DNA of 21,216 bases from a virus, in IMG/VR virus record IMGVR_UViG_3300006802_000720, positions 1 through 21,216 of that record. The stretch is one strand, 5' to 3'. Positions within the stretch are counted from its first letter, which is position 1. Every line of letters starts with the position of its first letter. This document shows, piece by piece, positions 2,934 to 10,508 of this stretch. The notes below the pieces were generated by a model. That model saw only the letters and a list, made by a program, of their open reading frames with translations. It was not told the origin of the DNA and searched no databases. The position numbers were made by a program, and so were the translations under genes.

Positions 2934-4145
2934 GTGGCAACGTGGCCGACGACAGCAAACGCGCAGAAGGTGGTGCCGAGTGCTGCCGCCGGGGTAGCTG
3001 TCACTCCAGTCGTAACGGCGTGGGCGAATTCATCGTGGTATGAAGTGACGTCCTCGATGCCGGTGAATGCGCTGATCACGGGCTGGTCGCTTAATCACGC
3101 CACAGCTTTTCAGTATGAGATTGACATCGGTGTCGGCGCCGCATCGAGCGAAGTTGTGGTAGCGACTTACGCCGGCAGCCATGAATCGAACGTCTGCCAT
3201 TCGCATCACCACGCCCCCATTCCGGTGCGCATTGCTTCGGGTTCACGTGTAGCTGTTCGGATTCGTAAGAGTGGGTCCAGCACCGCTAATCGTGCGTTCA
3301 AGTTGATGTATGTCGAAGATGACAGCAACCTTCCTTATGCCGCAGATGTCCCGGGGGTTGCTCCGTCCGCCGCAGCGGGGGCATCGGTCACACCGAGCGG
3401 CACAGCATGGAACGCTTCGAGCTGGGCTCAGCTTCATTCCGGGTTGACGGATGTCGTCGCGCTTGGGGTAGTCGTTGATATCGGAGCTGCCGCCGAGTTC
3501 GAGATTGAAGTTGGCATCGGCGCCGCGTCGAGCGAAGTTGGAATTGGAAAGGTAGTCAGTGCTCGCACCGCCACTGGCGGGGTCTCTTATTTTCTTCCTT
3601 TCGCGATTCCGATCAAATGTACGGGAACCAATAGGTTCGCAGTCCGCATCAGAAAGAGCGGGACAAGCACGACAGCATGGGGGATAAAACTTGCTTACGT
3701 CGATGCGGATAGTCTAGCGGCTGCGCAGAGCCTCTACTACACTACTGCAGACTTGAAGAAAGTTTCTCTGAAAGCTGACGTCTACTTGGGTGTCGTACTT
3801 AATGGAAATGGCACGGCTTGGGCAAACGGCGCATGGACACAGTTGATTGCCAGCACCGCTGAAGAATATTTTCTCGCGGCATTCATAGACAACTGGTGGT
3901 ACTCCAGCGGTATTGAGTATGAGATAGATGTCGGTGTCGGCGCCGCGTCGAGCGAAGTGGTGATCGCAACCTTCGCTGGGTATAACTCCGGAAATTGGGG
4001 ACGACCTCCACAATTGATGTTGTGGTTCTTGTTCGATTCGATCGCGGCCAGTTCTCGTGTCGCATTGCGAATTAGAAAATCTGGGACGACAACTGGTTCG
4101 ATTCTAGAAGGTGCGATCGCAGTCTATGAGGCTGACGAGCTATGA
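2934..4145 (+). CDS. three-module repeat protein, probable virion surface protein
   Basis: This 403-residue protein contains three divergent copies of a ~130-residue beta-rich module. Each copy carries a core G-A-A-S-S-E-V (starting near residues 68, 196 and 336) preceded by alternating E-I-D/E-V-G-x-G, and ends with R-x-A-x-R-I-R-K-S-G-(S/T)-(S/T)-T. The encoding DNA is also conserved: a 20-base block recurs at 3135, 3519 and 3939. The start is GTG at 2934 with GAGAGG ten bases upstream. There are no membrane segments or enzyme motifs. Composition (Ala, Ser, Gly, Thr, Val) and tandem beta modules suggest a head decoration or fibre protein, but this is inferred. A fourth copy forms the N-terminus of the next gene, which starts in a 4-base ATGA overlap. 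Confidence 0.8.
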   Translation: MATWPTTANAQKVVPSAAAGVAVTPVVTAWANSSWYEVTSSMPVNALITGWSLNHATAFQYEIDIGVGAASSEVVVATYAGSHESNVCHSHHHAPIPVRIASGSRVAVRIRKSGSSTANRAFKLMYVEDDSNLPYAADVPGVAPSAAAGASVTPSGTAWNASSWAQLHSGLTDVVALGVVVDIGAAAEFEIEVGIGAASSEVGIGKVVSARTATGGVSYFLPFAIPIKCTGTNRFAVRIRKSGTSTTAWGIKLAYVDADSLAAAQSLYYTTADLKKVSLKADVYLGVVLNGNGTAWANGAWTQLIASTAEEYFLAAFIDNWWYSSGIEYEIDVGVGAASSEVVIATFAGYNSGNWGRPPQLMLWFLFDSIAASSRVALRIRKSGTTTGSILEGAIAVYEADEL

Positions 4146-4377
4146 CTGCGATTTCACATTGGGTTTCTACCAATCACAAGCAGCTTGTTCTCCCCGACGC
4201 CAACACTGGAACGAGTGTTGATACGTCAGCGTCTGCGCAGGCGTTTGGTTCTTGGGTTGAGATGACTTCGGGGATTACGGGGGCCATTCTCATCGTCGGT
4301 TTTCAGGATCACCATAGCACGGTAATCGGCGATGCCATATATCTTGAGATCGGTACCGGCGCGGCATCGAGTGAAGT
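3135..4377 (+). repeat. four copies of a ~130-residue module across two genes
   Basis: Near-identical 20-base cores of the form GGCGCCGC(A/G)TCGAGCGAAGT lie at 3135-3154, 3519-3538 and 3939-3958. A diverged copy lies at 4358-4377. Copies two and three are identical over the core. Spacing is about 384, 420 and 419 bases. The first three lie in one gene and the fourth in the N-terminal part of the next, so duplication ran across what is now a gene boundary. Confidence 0.85.
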
Positions 4378-5869
4378 TACGGTAGCGCAAGCCTACTACG
4401 ATCATCAGTCGACTAATGATAATGGGGACCGTGGATTCTGGCGGCTCCCGGTTCCGGTCTTGGTTGCTACCAATACCCGCATCTCCGTAAGGCGAGCGAG
4501 GCAAAGTGCGGGCACGCACACCGGAGTAGTGAAGCTCATCTACTACCTGATGCCGCAGTACATTATCCCGGGAGGAATCGCTTCAGCAGAAAGTGTCCCG
4601 CAACCCACTGTTTCCCTTGGAACCGGAGGGCAGACGCTCCTGCCTTCGGCCATCGCCAGTGCGGAAGCGTTCGGCACGGCTAAGTTGAATCTTCAGGTTG
4701 TACCTTCGGCCATCGCTAGTGCGGAAGCGTTCGGCACGGCCAAGCTCAATCTTCAGGTGGCCCCGTCTGGCATCGCCAGTGCAGAAGCATTCGGCACGGC
4801 TAAATTGAACTTCACTTTGCTCCCTTCGGCGATCGCGAGCGCTGAAGCGTTCGGGGCGCATACGGTTTCCCCCGGCGGGGTTGTGGTACTGGCTTCCGGG
4901 GTCGCCAGTGCTGAAGCCTTTGGATCGCCGCAGCTCAATCTAAAACTGAATCCGTCGGCCATCGCCAGTGCAGAAGCGTTCGGTTCGGCTGTCATTGTTC
5001 CGGGGGGCGTGAGTCTTCTACCTTCTGGGATTGTGAGCGCCGAAGCGTTCGGCACGGCCAAGCTCAATCTCACCGTAGCTCCCAGCGCGATTGCTTCGTT
5101 GGAGGCGTTCGGCACGGCCAAGTTGAATTTCATCCTGTTTCCATCCGCAGTTGGAAGTGCAGAGGCTTTCGGGACTCCTAGTTTCAATTTGAAGATTGCG
5201 CCTTCGGGGATAGCGAGCGCTGAAGCATTTGGCAACGCTACTATCACTACCGGCACTCTTGTCATCTCTGCACAAGCGATCGCGAGCGCTGAGGCATTCG
5301 GAGCGCACACTGTTATTCCCGGCGGCATCTTCCTCGTTGCATCAGGGATTGCCAGCGCCGAAGCATTCGGGACCCCTGTCATCAGTCTCGGTGGTCTGGC
5401 CATTGTGCCTAGTGGGATTGCTTCTGCAGAGGCTTTCGGGGTTCTCACCCTGGCCCCCGGAGCGGTTAATATTCTGCCGACTTCAATAGGGAGTGCGGAG
5501 GTATTTGGAAGTTCTGCCGTAACTTCTAACTATGTTATTTTGCCGACCGGCGTGTCTAGCCTAGAGACGTTCGGAGACACTATAATAGTGCGCGGCGCGG
5601 TTATCATAACCTGTACAGGGATTGCCAGTGCTGAGAGCTTCGGAACCACGACCATTCTTGGGGGCTTGGTTCAATTTGGGAAGCTTCTCGCCAGTGCCGT
5701 TCGAGTGTTGCCGCGAATCGGCAGCTCTGTGCGAGCGGAGCCGCGAATCGTGGTGACGGACATGACCAACAGCCTGCGTGTCGGGGGCAGTGGTTCAGCC
5801 GAACCCCGAGTCGGGAGATTTACACTGAGAGCATTGCTTGCTTTGCTGGGAGGATCTAAAGTTGAGTGA
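4142..5869 (+). CDS. repeat-array protein: one surface module plus ~17 short repeats
   Basis: This 575-residue protein has three parts. Residues 1 to ~139 form one copy of the module found in the preceding protein (core G-A-A-S-S-E-V at 73-79). Residues ~140-508 hold about 17 tandem units of 20-23 residues with consensus (L/V)-x-P-S-G-I-A-S-A-E-A-F-G-T-x-x-(L/I); twelve units keep S-A-E-A-F-G exactly, and the first and last few are degenerate. The C-terminal ~65 residues are different: they repeat (S/A)-E-P-R-(I/V) and end in a hydrophobic helix (L-R-A-L-L-A-L-L). There is no signal peptide or enzyme motif. It is probably an elongated fibre-like or decoration protein, inferred from repeat architecture and its neighbour. 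The ATG at 4142 overlaps the previous stop. Confidence 0.8.
   Translation: MTAISHWVSTNHKQLVLPDANTGTSVDTSASAQAFGSWVEMTSGITGAILIVGFQDHHSTVIGDAIYLEIGTGAASSEVTVAQAYYDHQSTNDNGDRGFWRLPVPVLVATNTRISVRRARQSAGTHTGVVKLIYYLMPQYIIPGGIASAESVPQPTVSLGTGGQTLLPSAIASAEAFGTAKLNLQVVPSAIASAEAFGTAKLNLQVAPSGIASAEAFGTAKLNFTLLPSAIASAEAFGAHTVSPGGVVVLASGVASAEAFGSPQLNLKLNPSAIASAEAFGSAVIVPGGVSLLPSGIVSAEAFGTAKLNLTVAPSAIASLEAFGTAKLNFILFPSAVGSAEAFGTPSFNLKIAPSGIASAEAFGNATITTGTLVISAQAIASAEAFGAHTVIPGGIFLVASGIASAEAFGTPVISLGGLAIVPSGIASAEAFGVLTLAPGAVNILPTSIGSAEVFGSSAVTSNYVILPTGVSSLETFGDTIIVRGAVIITCTGIASAESFGTTTILGGLVQFGKLLASAVRVLPRIGSSVRAEPRIVVTDMTNSLRVGGSGSAEPRVGRFTLRALLALLGGSKVE
4561..5667 (+). repeat. tandem array of ~60-66 bp coding repeats
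   Basis: About 17 in-frame units encode the G-I-A-S-A-E-A-F-G repeat. Units around 4645-4800 are nearly identical at DNA level with a 60-base period (for example GCGGAAGCGTTCGGCACGGC at 4661 and 4721). Units toward both ends are more diverged, as expected if the centre has been expanded or homogenised recently. Copy number may vary between relatives and during assembly. Confidence 0.88.
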
Positions 5870-8503: not shown

Positions 8504-9178
8504 ATGGACGAAGAGTTCATGAAAGAGATGCAGCGCAAGTTCGGCGAAGACCTGGAGATGCGCTTCCTGGAAACCAAAATCGAAGTCAGGGAGGAGGAGC
8601 GCAATGGGATCACTGGCCCGGTCATGTTCGGCTATGCGGCTGTGTTCGACAAGTTGAGCGAAGACCTCGGAGGTTTTCGTGAACAGGTTGCCAAGGGAGC
8701 TTTTGCCGAAGCCATCTCCAATGACGATGTTCGGGCGCTCTTCAACCATGATCCAAACTACGTTCTGGGTCGGAGCAAGGCTGGAACGCTGCGCATGCAG
8801 GAGGACGATCACGGTCTCTATGTGGAGATCACCCCTCCGGACACACGCTATGCTCGCGATTTGCTTACGGCGATGAAGCGCGGCGACATCAATCAGATGT
8901 CCTTCAGTTTCAGAGTCAAACCGGGGGGACAGGACTGGGCGCGAGATGACAACGGTCAGGTAGTGCGCACGCTCAAGCGGGTTCGTCTGTTCGACGTTTC
9001 CCCTGTGACGTTCCCCGCATATCCGCAGACGGCCATTGCGCAGCGAAGCATGCAGGAATTCCTGAAGACTATCGTCCCCCCGGAACCGGATTTGTCTGAT
9101 CTGGATGTCCGGGCAAAGCAGCTCGACACGCTGGATCTGCAGACGAGACTGTTTCAGCAGAGGTTGAAGTCGCGGTAA
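8504..9178 (+). CDS. prohead maturation protease (HK97 type, S78)
   Basis: This 224-residue protein is a serine protease that removes scaffold segments from the immature capsid. Key motifs are A-L-F-N-H-D-x-N-Y-V-L-G-R with candidate catalytic H82, and Q-M-S-F-S-F with candidate nucleophile S133. The His-Ser spacing of about 50 residues fits the family. The core also shows G-Y-A-A-V-F-D near residue 43 and D-V-S-P-V-T-F-P-A-Y-P near the end of the catalytic domain, both typical. The last ~35 residues are a charged helix. GGAGG at 8494-8498 overlaps the portal stop region and directs the ATG at 8504. The capsid gene follows after the structured 88-base leader. Confidence 0.95.
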   Translation: MDEEFMKEMQRKFGEDLEMRFLETKIEVREEERNGITGPVMFGYAAVFDKLSEDLGGFREQVAKGAFAEAISNDDVRALFNHDPNYVLGRSKAGTLRMQEDDHGLYVEITPPDTRYARDLLTAMKRGDINQMSFSFRVKPGGQDWARDDNGQVVRTLKRVRLFDVSPVTFPAYPQTAIAQRSMQEFLKTIVPPEPDLSDLDVRAKQLDTLDLQTRLFQQRLKSR

Positions 9179-9187
9179 GGGTATTAG

Positions 9188-9245
9188 TTTCCGCAGCCGT
9201 TAGGTGTCCCGTCAAACGGCAACTGCGGGAATCAAGTGACGGGAC
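9188..9245 (+). promoter_or_regulatory. H-type RNA pseudoknot in capsid leader
   Basis: Two long helices interlock in the gap before the capsid gene. Stem 1 pairs 9191-9201 with 9215-9219 plus 9223-9228 (11 bp, with a CAA bulge at 9220-9222) and can extend by three pairs from 9188. Stem 2 pairs 9206-9214 with 9237-9245: nine perfect pairs, GTCCCGTCA with TGACGGGAC. The 5' arm of stem 2 lies inside the loop of stem 1 and ends directly beside stem 1's 3' arm, which is the order of a coaxially stacked pseudoknot. It ends 22 bases before the capsid start, just ahead of the ribosome binding site AGAGGAG at 9253-9259. The pairing is visible in the sequence; regulation or mRNA protection is inferred. 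Confidence 0.75.
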
Positions 9246-9266
9246 TTTAACAAGAGGAGTTAGACT

Positions 9267-10508
9267 ATGAGTGCAAGAATCGCAGAGCTGATCGATTCCC
9301 GCAATCGTCTGGTGGTCGAGATGCGGGGCATCGTCGACAAAGCGCGCAACGAAAAGCGCACTTTGAACGACGAGGAGAGCCGTCGCTACGACGAGATCTT
9401 CGCGGAACAGGACAAGGTGTCCAAGACGATCGAGGCGGAGGAGCGTACCGAGAAACTCGACAAGGAGATCGCGGAGCGTGCGGCGAAGAGCAACGTGCCC
9501 GACAAGACCGTGTCCAAGGTTTCGGAGGAAATGCGGGCCGTCTTCGGTCGCCGCGCCGACGAGCCGTACGACAAGGCGTTTCGGAGCTACATTCTGGGCG
9601 ATGAGTTCCGTGCGCTTCAGTCGGAACTGGATGTCAAGGGCGGCTTCGTTGTCACCCCCATGCAGTTCGTGCAGACCATGATCAAGGCAGTCGACGATCT
9701 GGTCTTCATTCGGGGTCTGGCCACGAAGTTCCAGGTTCCGACCGCCGAGGCGCTGGGCGCTCCGAGTCTGGATGCCGATCCGGATGACGGCACCTGGACG
9801 ACCGAACTGAAGACCGGCGCCGAAGACGATACGATGGCGTTCGGCCGGCGCGAGCTGCACCCGCGTCCGCTGGCGAAGCGTATCAAGATCAGCAACAAGC
9901 TGCTCCGGCAGGTCCCCGGCATCGAAGGCTTCGTCGTCTCGCGTTTGGCGTATAAGTTCGCCATCACCCACGAGAAGGCGTTCCTCACCGGCACCGGCGC
10001 CAATCAGCCCCTCGGTCTGTTCGTTGCCAGCAACGACGGCATTCCCACCAGTCGGGACATCAGCACGGACAACACGGCCACGGCGCTCACGATGAACGGT
10101 CTCATCAACGCCAAGTACGGACTGAAGGCGCAGTATCAGTCGCGGGCTCGCTGGCTGTTCCATCGCGACGCGATCAAGAACATCGCGAAGCTTCGGGACG
10201 AGTCTGGCGGCGCCGGCACCGGGTCGTATCTCTGGCAGCCGAGCAAGCAGGTCGGTGAGCCGGATGTGCTGCTCGGCAATCCGGTGATGATGTCGGAGTA
10301 CGTGCCGAACACCTTCACGGCCAGCCAGTACGTCGGCATGATCGCTGACTTCAGCAACTACTGGATCGCCGATGCGACCGATATGAGCGTGCAGCGTCTG
10401 CTGGAGCTGTATGCCGAGACGAACCAGATGGGTCTCATCGCCCGGATGGAGACGGACGGCATGCCGGTTCTCAGCGAGGCGTTCGTTCGCGTGAAGCTCA
10501 GCGCGTAA
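9267..10508 (+). CDS. major capsid protein (HK97 fold)
   Basis: This 413-residue protein is the main shell subunit. Residues 1 to ~105 are a charged coiled-coil segment typical of the delta scaffold domain of HK97-like capsid proteins, which the adjacent protease normally removes. The folded domain then begins with G-G-F-V-V-T-P-M-Q-F-V. It continues with K-R-I-K-I-S-N-K-L-L, A-F-L-T-G-T-G-A-N-Q-P-L-G and G-N-P-V-M-M-S-E-Y, all characteristic of the family. The start has a strong AGAGGAG site. Third codon positions are markedly G/C rich, consistent with high expression. The preceding pseudoknot and downstream terminator place it in a unit with the next gene. Confidence 0.97.
   Translation: MSARIAELIDSRNRLVVEMRGIVDKARNEKRTLNDEESRRYDEIFAEQDKVSKTIEAEERTEKLDKEIAERAAKSNVPDKTVSKVSEEMRAVFGRRADEPYDKAFRSYILGDEFRALQSELDVKGGFVVTPMQFVQTMIKAVDDLVFIRGLATKFQVPTAEALGAPSLDADPDDGTWTTELKTGAEDDTMAFGRRELHPRPLAKRIKISNKLLRQVPGIEGFVVSRLAYKFAITHEKAFLTGTGANQPLGLFVASNDGIPTSRDISTDNTATALTMNGLINAKYGLKAQYQSRARWLFHRDAIKNIAKLRDESGGAGTGSYLWQPSKQVGEPDVLLGNPVMMSEYVPNTFTASQYVGMIADFSNYWIADATDMSVQRLLELYAETNQMGLIARMETDGMPVLSEAFVRVKLSA

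Follow-up and report, generated by a model that had tools for sequence, protein, structure and literature searches.

Compact pseudoknots occur among riboswitches, SAM-II and preQ1 being examples, and the pseudoknot of the E. coli rpsO operator involves the region where the ribosome loads. In T4 gene 32 mRNA, RNase E cuts at position -71, upstream of the leader pseudoknot, and the RNA 5' of this site decays rapidly (PMC3014915). The T4-type gene 32 pseudoknot, which is about 28 nt long and stands 5' of UUAAA/UAAA repeats to which gp32 binds cooperatively (PMC535899, PMC3014915), was described in 2010 as perhaps the sole viral pseudoknot engaged in autoregulation of translation (PMC3014915). As in T4-type gene 32, a predicted pseudoknot lies 5' of a phage mRNA ribosome binding site in the window, by which we mean the whole 21,216-base stretch of viral DNA analyzed here.

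The head genes of the window stand in the standard order of portal (phrog_12), head maturation protease (phrog_80), and major capsid (phrog_10), and 88 nt (positions 9179 to 9266) separate the protease stop codon from the capsid ATG. The portal gene is preceded by a 575-amino-acid open frame (4142 to 5869) containing many tandem repeats of the PSAIASAEAFGTAKLNL type. The initial annotation had placed two interlocking helices in the 88-base gap, stem 1 (S1) with 11 pairs, or 14 if extended, and stem 2 (S2) with 9 pairs, and had described a 4-nt first loop, helices with no gap between them, and an end just before the capsid ribosome binding site. All of these features were recovered. Direct reading gave an S1 of 11 pairs with a 3-nt bulge, an S2 of 9 perfect pairs, a 4-nt loop 1 (L1), and an L2 of 0, with S2 ending 6 nt 5' of the Shine-Dalgarno sequence AAGAGGAG and 21 nt 5' of the ATG at 9267 (Table 1); both inverted repeats were picked up by a repeat finder as well. 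Three outer pairs, one of them U-G, could extend S1 to 14 pairs, in which case loop 3 would be reduced from 8 to 5 nt. In addition, TGCGGGAATC (9224 to 9233), which straddles the S1 3' arm and loop 3, could pair without a mismatch along 10 bases with GATTCCCGCA (9293 to 9302), within the start of the capsid coding region; this possible competing helix is absent from the computed optimum.

TABLE 1 Positions of the features in the window and of the conserved leader elements in relatives
Feature	Sequence	Position	Strand	Basis or remark
Source DNA (window)		21,216 bases	one strand	virus record IMGVR_UViG_3300006802_000720
Head maturation protease gene (upstream cistron)		8504..9178	+	phrog_80, E 8e-62
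Possible outer S1 extension, 5' side	TTT	9188..9190	+	pairs with GAA 9229-9231
S1 5' arm	CCGCAGCCGTT	9191..9201	+	direct reading, interlock scan
Loop 1 (4 nt)	AGGT	9202..9205	+	direct reading
S2 5' arm	GTCCCGTCA	9206..9214	+	direct reading, repeat finder, interlock scan
S1 3' arm	AACGG-caa-CTGCGG	9215..9228	+	bulge 9220-9222; direct reading, repeat finder, interlock scan
Loop 3	GAATCAAG	9229..9236	+	direct reading, geometric model
S2 3' arm	TGACGGGAC	9237..9245	+	direct reading, repeat finder, interlock scan
Shine-Dalgarno region	AAGAGGAG	9252..9259	+	outside pseudoknot; direct reading
Major capsid gene, HK97 type		9267..10508	+	phrog_10, E 3e-65
R1 element, L075		708-764		before HK97-type capsid gene, uncultured phage
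R1 element, L078		1893-1948		before HK97-type capsid gene, uncultured phage
R1 element, L082		1927-1980		before HK97-type capsid gene, uncultured phage
R1 element, L370		5889-5943		before HK97-type capsid gene, uncultured phage
R1 elements, about 20 further loci				before HK97-type capsid genes, uncultured phages

A custom scan for pairs of interlocked helices with short loops and this geometry, scored by stacking energy, gave the window leader a value of -44.3 (outer S1 extension included), versus -30.6 for the best shuffle, and none of 20,000 dinucleotide shuffles was at or below the observed value. In the same scan, the leader ranked first among 994,442 bases of phage loci searched on both strands, with a GC content of just 51% in a set in which many places were far GC-richer. 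The ordinary nested fold of the leader was not unusual (z = -1.2) because the nested optimum retains just the extended S2 hairpin, and the signal therefore resides in the interlock.

Loop spans were estimated with a crude A-form phosphate model, the deep and shallow labels of which appear to be swapped relative to textbook usage; the conclusion on stem 1 length was the same whichever groove assignment was applied. By this estimate, loop 1 needs 4 to 5 nt to cross 9 bp and has 4, the lower limit, and loop 3 needs 5 to 6 nt to cross 11 bp and has 8. Across 14 bp, loop 3 would need 6 to 7 nt and would have only 5, which is too short, and the 14-pair S1 was rejected for the closed pseudoknot. In this model, then, the 11-pair S1 is feasible as an H-type pseudoknot, and the extension is incompatible with a closed knot; the caution in the initial annotation that a short loop must span a long stem 1 holds for the 14-pair extension and not for the 11-pair form.

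Alternatively, the window RNA may form a single stem: the extended S2 hairpin, or else S1, would be an ordinary hairpin between cistrons, with the interlock a by-product. The nested optimum is such an extended S2 hairpin (-24.6 kcal/mol, using part of an S1 arm), loop 1 is at the lower length limit, and conservation of both stems is seen in no homologue of the window. The shuffle result and the first rank in 994 kb of phage DNA count against this explanation, as does the match of the window in position and topology with a family of covarying knots that occupies this gap in relatives, and we consider a single stem improbable. Positions 9191 to 9245 are probably an H-type RNA pseudoknot lying between the protease and capsid cistrons, in the leader of the major capsid gene, and the RNA presumably folds into this knot in cells.

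The covarying family emerged when relatives of the window capsid were collected and their leaders (67 leaders of related HK97-type capsid genes after dereplication) were scanned for interlocked helices. A conserved H-type pseudoknot, small at about 55 nt, was present in 15 of the 24 gaps that were 75 nt or longer and in none of the 43 shorter ones; this count includes one leader assigned by eye (L067) and excludes four with unmeasured gaps, among them L102, which has the element. The family consensus is GGCAnUCCGC-L1-S2-GCGGAYGCC-n-GGUGUYC-n-S2', with a looser S1 form of RGCRnUCCGC / GCGGAYGCY. A covariance model, R1, was built from stem 1 and the sequence with stem 2 left unpaired, so that stem 2 could be tested separately. 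Members of the R1 family score 26 to 64 bits, except for the divergent L067 (14.7 bits). The stem 2 arms of members paired with their own partners at a mean of -18.5 kcal/mol, compared with -9.6 for the partners of other members and -10.0 for shuffled partners. Pair counting over both helices gave 98.9% paired cells, with 42 cells changed on both sides, a result reached in none of 500 shuffles, and slid controls were 30 to 49% paired; the stem 2 arms in this alignment had been chosen as paired, so stem 2 is tested more fairly by the comparison of own and other partners. In the clearest case, L370 differs from L075 and L078 by compensatory changes in both helices while the rest of the block is nearly invariant (stem 1, G-C to A-U in columns 27 and 46; stem 2, G-C to C-G in columns 40 and 71). 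Covariation in the R1 family is strong, and stem 2 is confirmed without selection.

Whole virus records had one strong R1 match each, and weaker second matches were at noise level. Matches of 13 to 31 bits at loci that had been preselected by a degenerate form of the motif (e.g., L164, L173, and L161) were taken as chance. In L291, which belongs to the same record as L200, the element (1501 to 1556) precedes not a capsid gene but a major tail protein gene (1575 to 2036; phrog_158, E 4.7e-8). A signal-peptide-like start region or a small open reading frame follows the element in L145, L147, and L073; in L145 (1023 to 2600) and L073 (1794 to 3236), the frame begins in signal-peptide-like fashion (MKKKHVFGILIAV... 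and MKRTSFITLAFVALALVFAMPVMA..., respectively) and continues into the capsid. Cultured phages gave no convincing match to the L082 and L075 elements, and Streptomyces phage Chymera, the nearest cultured capsid relative, has a 56-nt gap with just a GC-rich hairpin by eye. A search with R1 of 369 bacterial genomes of the class of the Marinobacter bin, run with no positive control, returned no matches and carries little weight. The loop 3 motif in the form GGUGUUC is complementary to GAACACC, a stretch that many bacteria have in the platform region of their 16S rRNA; the complementarity may be chance. In Rfam 15, nothing reached the gathering threshold in the window, in keeping with the initial annotation, which had matched the knot to no named RNA family, or in 15 loci with the conserved element. 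No description of an R1-type element was found in the open literature searched, which was mostly without subscription journals and without supplementary files, and the R1 family is apparently an undescribed pseudoknot.

The window knot and the R1 family share the H-type topology, long stems, an absent or short junction loop, and a location in the same gap between the head protease gene and a related major capsid gene. In both, stem 2 ends near the Shine-Dalgarno sequence, the start codon coming 21 nt after stem 2 in the window and 18 to 24 nt after it in many members. In contrast to the family, the window has neither the S1 consensus RGCRnUCCGC / GCGGAYGCY nor GGUGUYC in loop 3, which reads GAATCAAG and is short (8 nt versus about 10 to 18 nt), and its S1 is longer and carries the 3-nt bulge. 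With the R1 model, the window leader scored 5.5 bits, which is noise compared with the 26 to 64 bits of members. GGTGTCC does occur in the window, at 9203 to 9209, but there it runs across loop 1 and the S2 5' arm; GGCAA and GGTGTCC stand in swapped places relative to the family, and a circular permutation of R1 was therefore considered. A permuted covariance model, R2, did not report the window leader at E values up to 10, and the permutation was rejected. The window knot is not an R1 member and at most works like one.

No detectable homologue of the window sequence was found. An exact 15-mer from the window had 37 matches in viral contigs, none of them with the S2 partner, which is consistent with chance. 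Neither the leaders of protease relatives nor that of the single portal relative contained a window-like knot. L001, the closest capsid relative (62% identity), has no pseudoknot in its leader, indicating that the element is dispensable in related phages. In L066, L071, and L120, the capsid ribosome binding site follows directly on an intrinsic-terminator-like hairpin and T-run in the gap (48 to 77 nt), which leaves scant room for a promoter in between. Alignment of relatives' leaders, the check proposed in the initial annotation, thus revealed a covarying family in other phages, but the nearest relative is without a knot and the family model fails on the window. The H-type reading remains the best reading of the sequence in view of the covarying H-type knots in the same gap of independent relatives, and the support that these relatives lend to the window knot is indirect.

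No sigma-70-like promoter was found in the window gap or in the gaps of relatives, so the capsid message probably derives from a longer transcript. A strict test placed intrinsic-terminator-like hairpins directly 5' of the R1 element in L102 and L126, and similar hairpins precede it by eye in L067, L069, L070, L072, L073, and L082; the short U-rich linker left between hairpin and element is a possible cleavage site. The window has no upstream terminator. Such hairpins in or near the gap of several relatives, together with the compact, conserved cis-acting form of the R1 element, could suggest a put-like antiterminator, in which the folded RNA would alter RNA polymerase so that it reads through late-operon terminators. 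The terminators observed are upstream of the element and not downstream, the position is not promoter proximal, and close relatives with the same gene order do not have the element; this explanation is very unlikely. A ligand-sensing riboswitch that times capsid expression seems more doubtful still: compact pseudoknots such as SAM-II and preQ1 provide precedents, and the R1 family has conserved unpaired bases (GGUGUYC), but no Rfam 15 match was obtained, no conserved alternative fold hides the Shine-Dalgarno sequence, and we know of no precedent for metabolite input to a capsid gene.

Our preferred reading, held tentatively, is that the window knot is a 5' boundary or stability element that raises the expression of abundant structural genes. 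The long late transcript would be cut, or would decay, in single-stranded RNA upstream of the knot, the rigid knot would then shield the newly formed 5' end of the capsid message, and ribosomes would load at the open Shine-Dalgarno sequence 6 nt past the knot. As a result, the capsid message would be stabler and better expressed than the protease or portal message; both the processing upstream of the knot and its positive effect on expression are presumed here. The boundary element fits best because the capsid cistron has a stable knot at its 5' border, no promoter is found, and the family is used with both capsid and tail genes, whereas simple occlusion is unlikely because the Shine-Dalgarno sequence is outside the knot. 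The initial annotation had offered 5'-end protection, pacing of translation, and ligand or coat-protein sensing as candidate roles. Since the R1 copy of L291 precedes a major tail gene, what the genes behind the element share is that they encode an abundant virion protein, and sensing by the capsid protein alone becomes less likely. Against a boundary element, the conserved GGUGUYC of R1 exceeds the needs of a plain barrier, the window has neither the terminator nor the R1 consensus, and L001 is without any such element.

The sequence-specific conservation in the R1 stem 1 and GGUGUYC is typical of a recognition site and would be expected of a translational operator, at which a phage or host protein would bind the knot and block or trap the ribosome at the nearby Shine-Dalgarno sequence, as T4 gp32 does. 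The 6-nt distance between the knot and the Shine-Dalgarno sequence and the precedent of a phage leader pseudoknot acting as an operator (PMC535899, PMC3014915) agree with this explanation. However, capsid-only autoregulation does not fit the copy before the major tail gene, no candidate RNA-binding protein was identified, and in several R1 members the knot is 40 to 50 nt from the start codon, so that an operator, while conceivable, is unlikely.

Taken with the boundary reading, these results raise the possibility, to be held with reserve, that uncultured tailed phages have an undescribed class of H-type knots with a conserved GGUGUYC third strand, serving as a 5' element that boosts or times production of those virion proteins that are most abundant (major capsid and sometimes major tail), and that the window knot, independently evolved or very divergent, replaces it in the same position. 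The knots in capsid leaders suggest that these viruses set the amount of their main shell protein by RNA structure. Given a covarying knot in diverse phages, such control of capsid dosage may be widespread among these tailed phages, which bears on how one operon yields hundreds of capsid proteins and few portals; the R1 element is well defined and easily tested in reporters.

The E. coli rpsO operator, which responds to ribosomal protein S15, likewise has a pseudoknot in an mRNA translational operator (PMC3014915), but the Shine-Dalgarno sequence of the window is outside the knot and no Rfam relation was seen. Compared with T4-type gene 32, the window has no UUAAA or UAAA in the stretch from the knot to the capsid ATG (9246 to 9266 reads TTTAACAAGAGGAGTTAGACT), its stems are longer, and the gene is that of the capsid. 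In both, the leader of a phage mRNA contains an H-type knot, which precedes the Shine-Dalgarno sequence and the gene for an abundantly made protein (PMC535899, PMC3014915). With its RNase E cut upstream of a leader knot, T4 gene 32 provides a precedent for a boundary element, and it also supports the operator explanation (PMC3014915, PMC535899).
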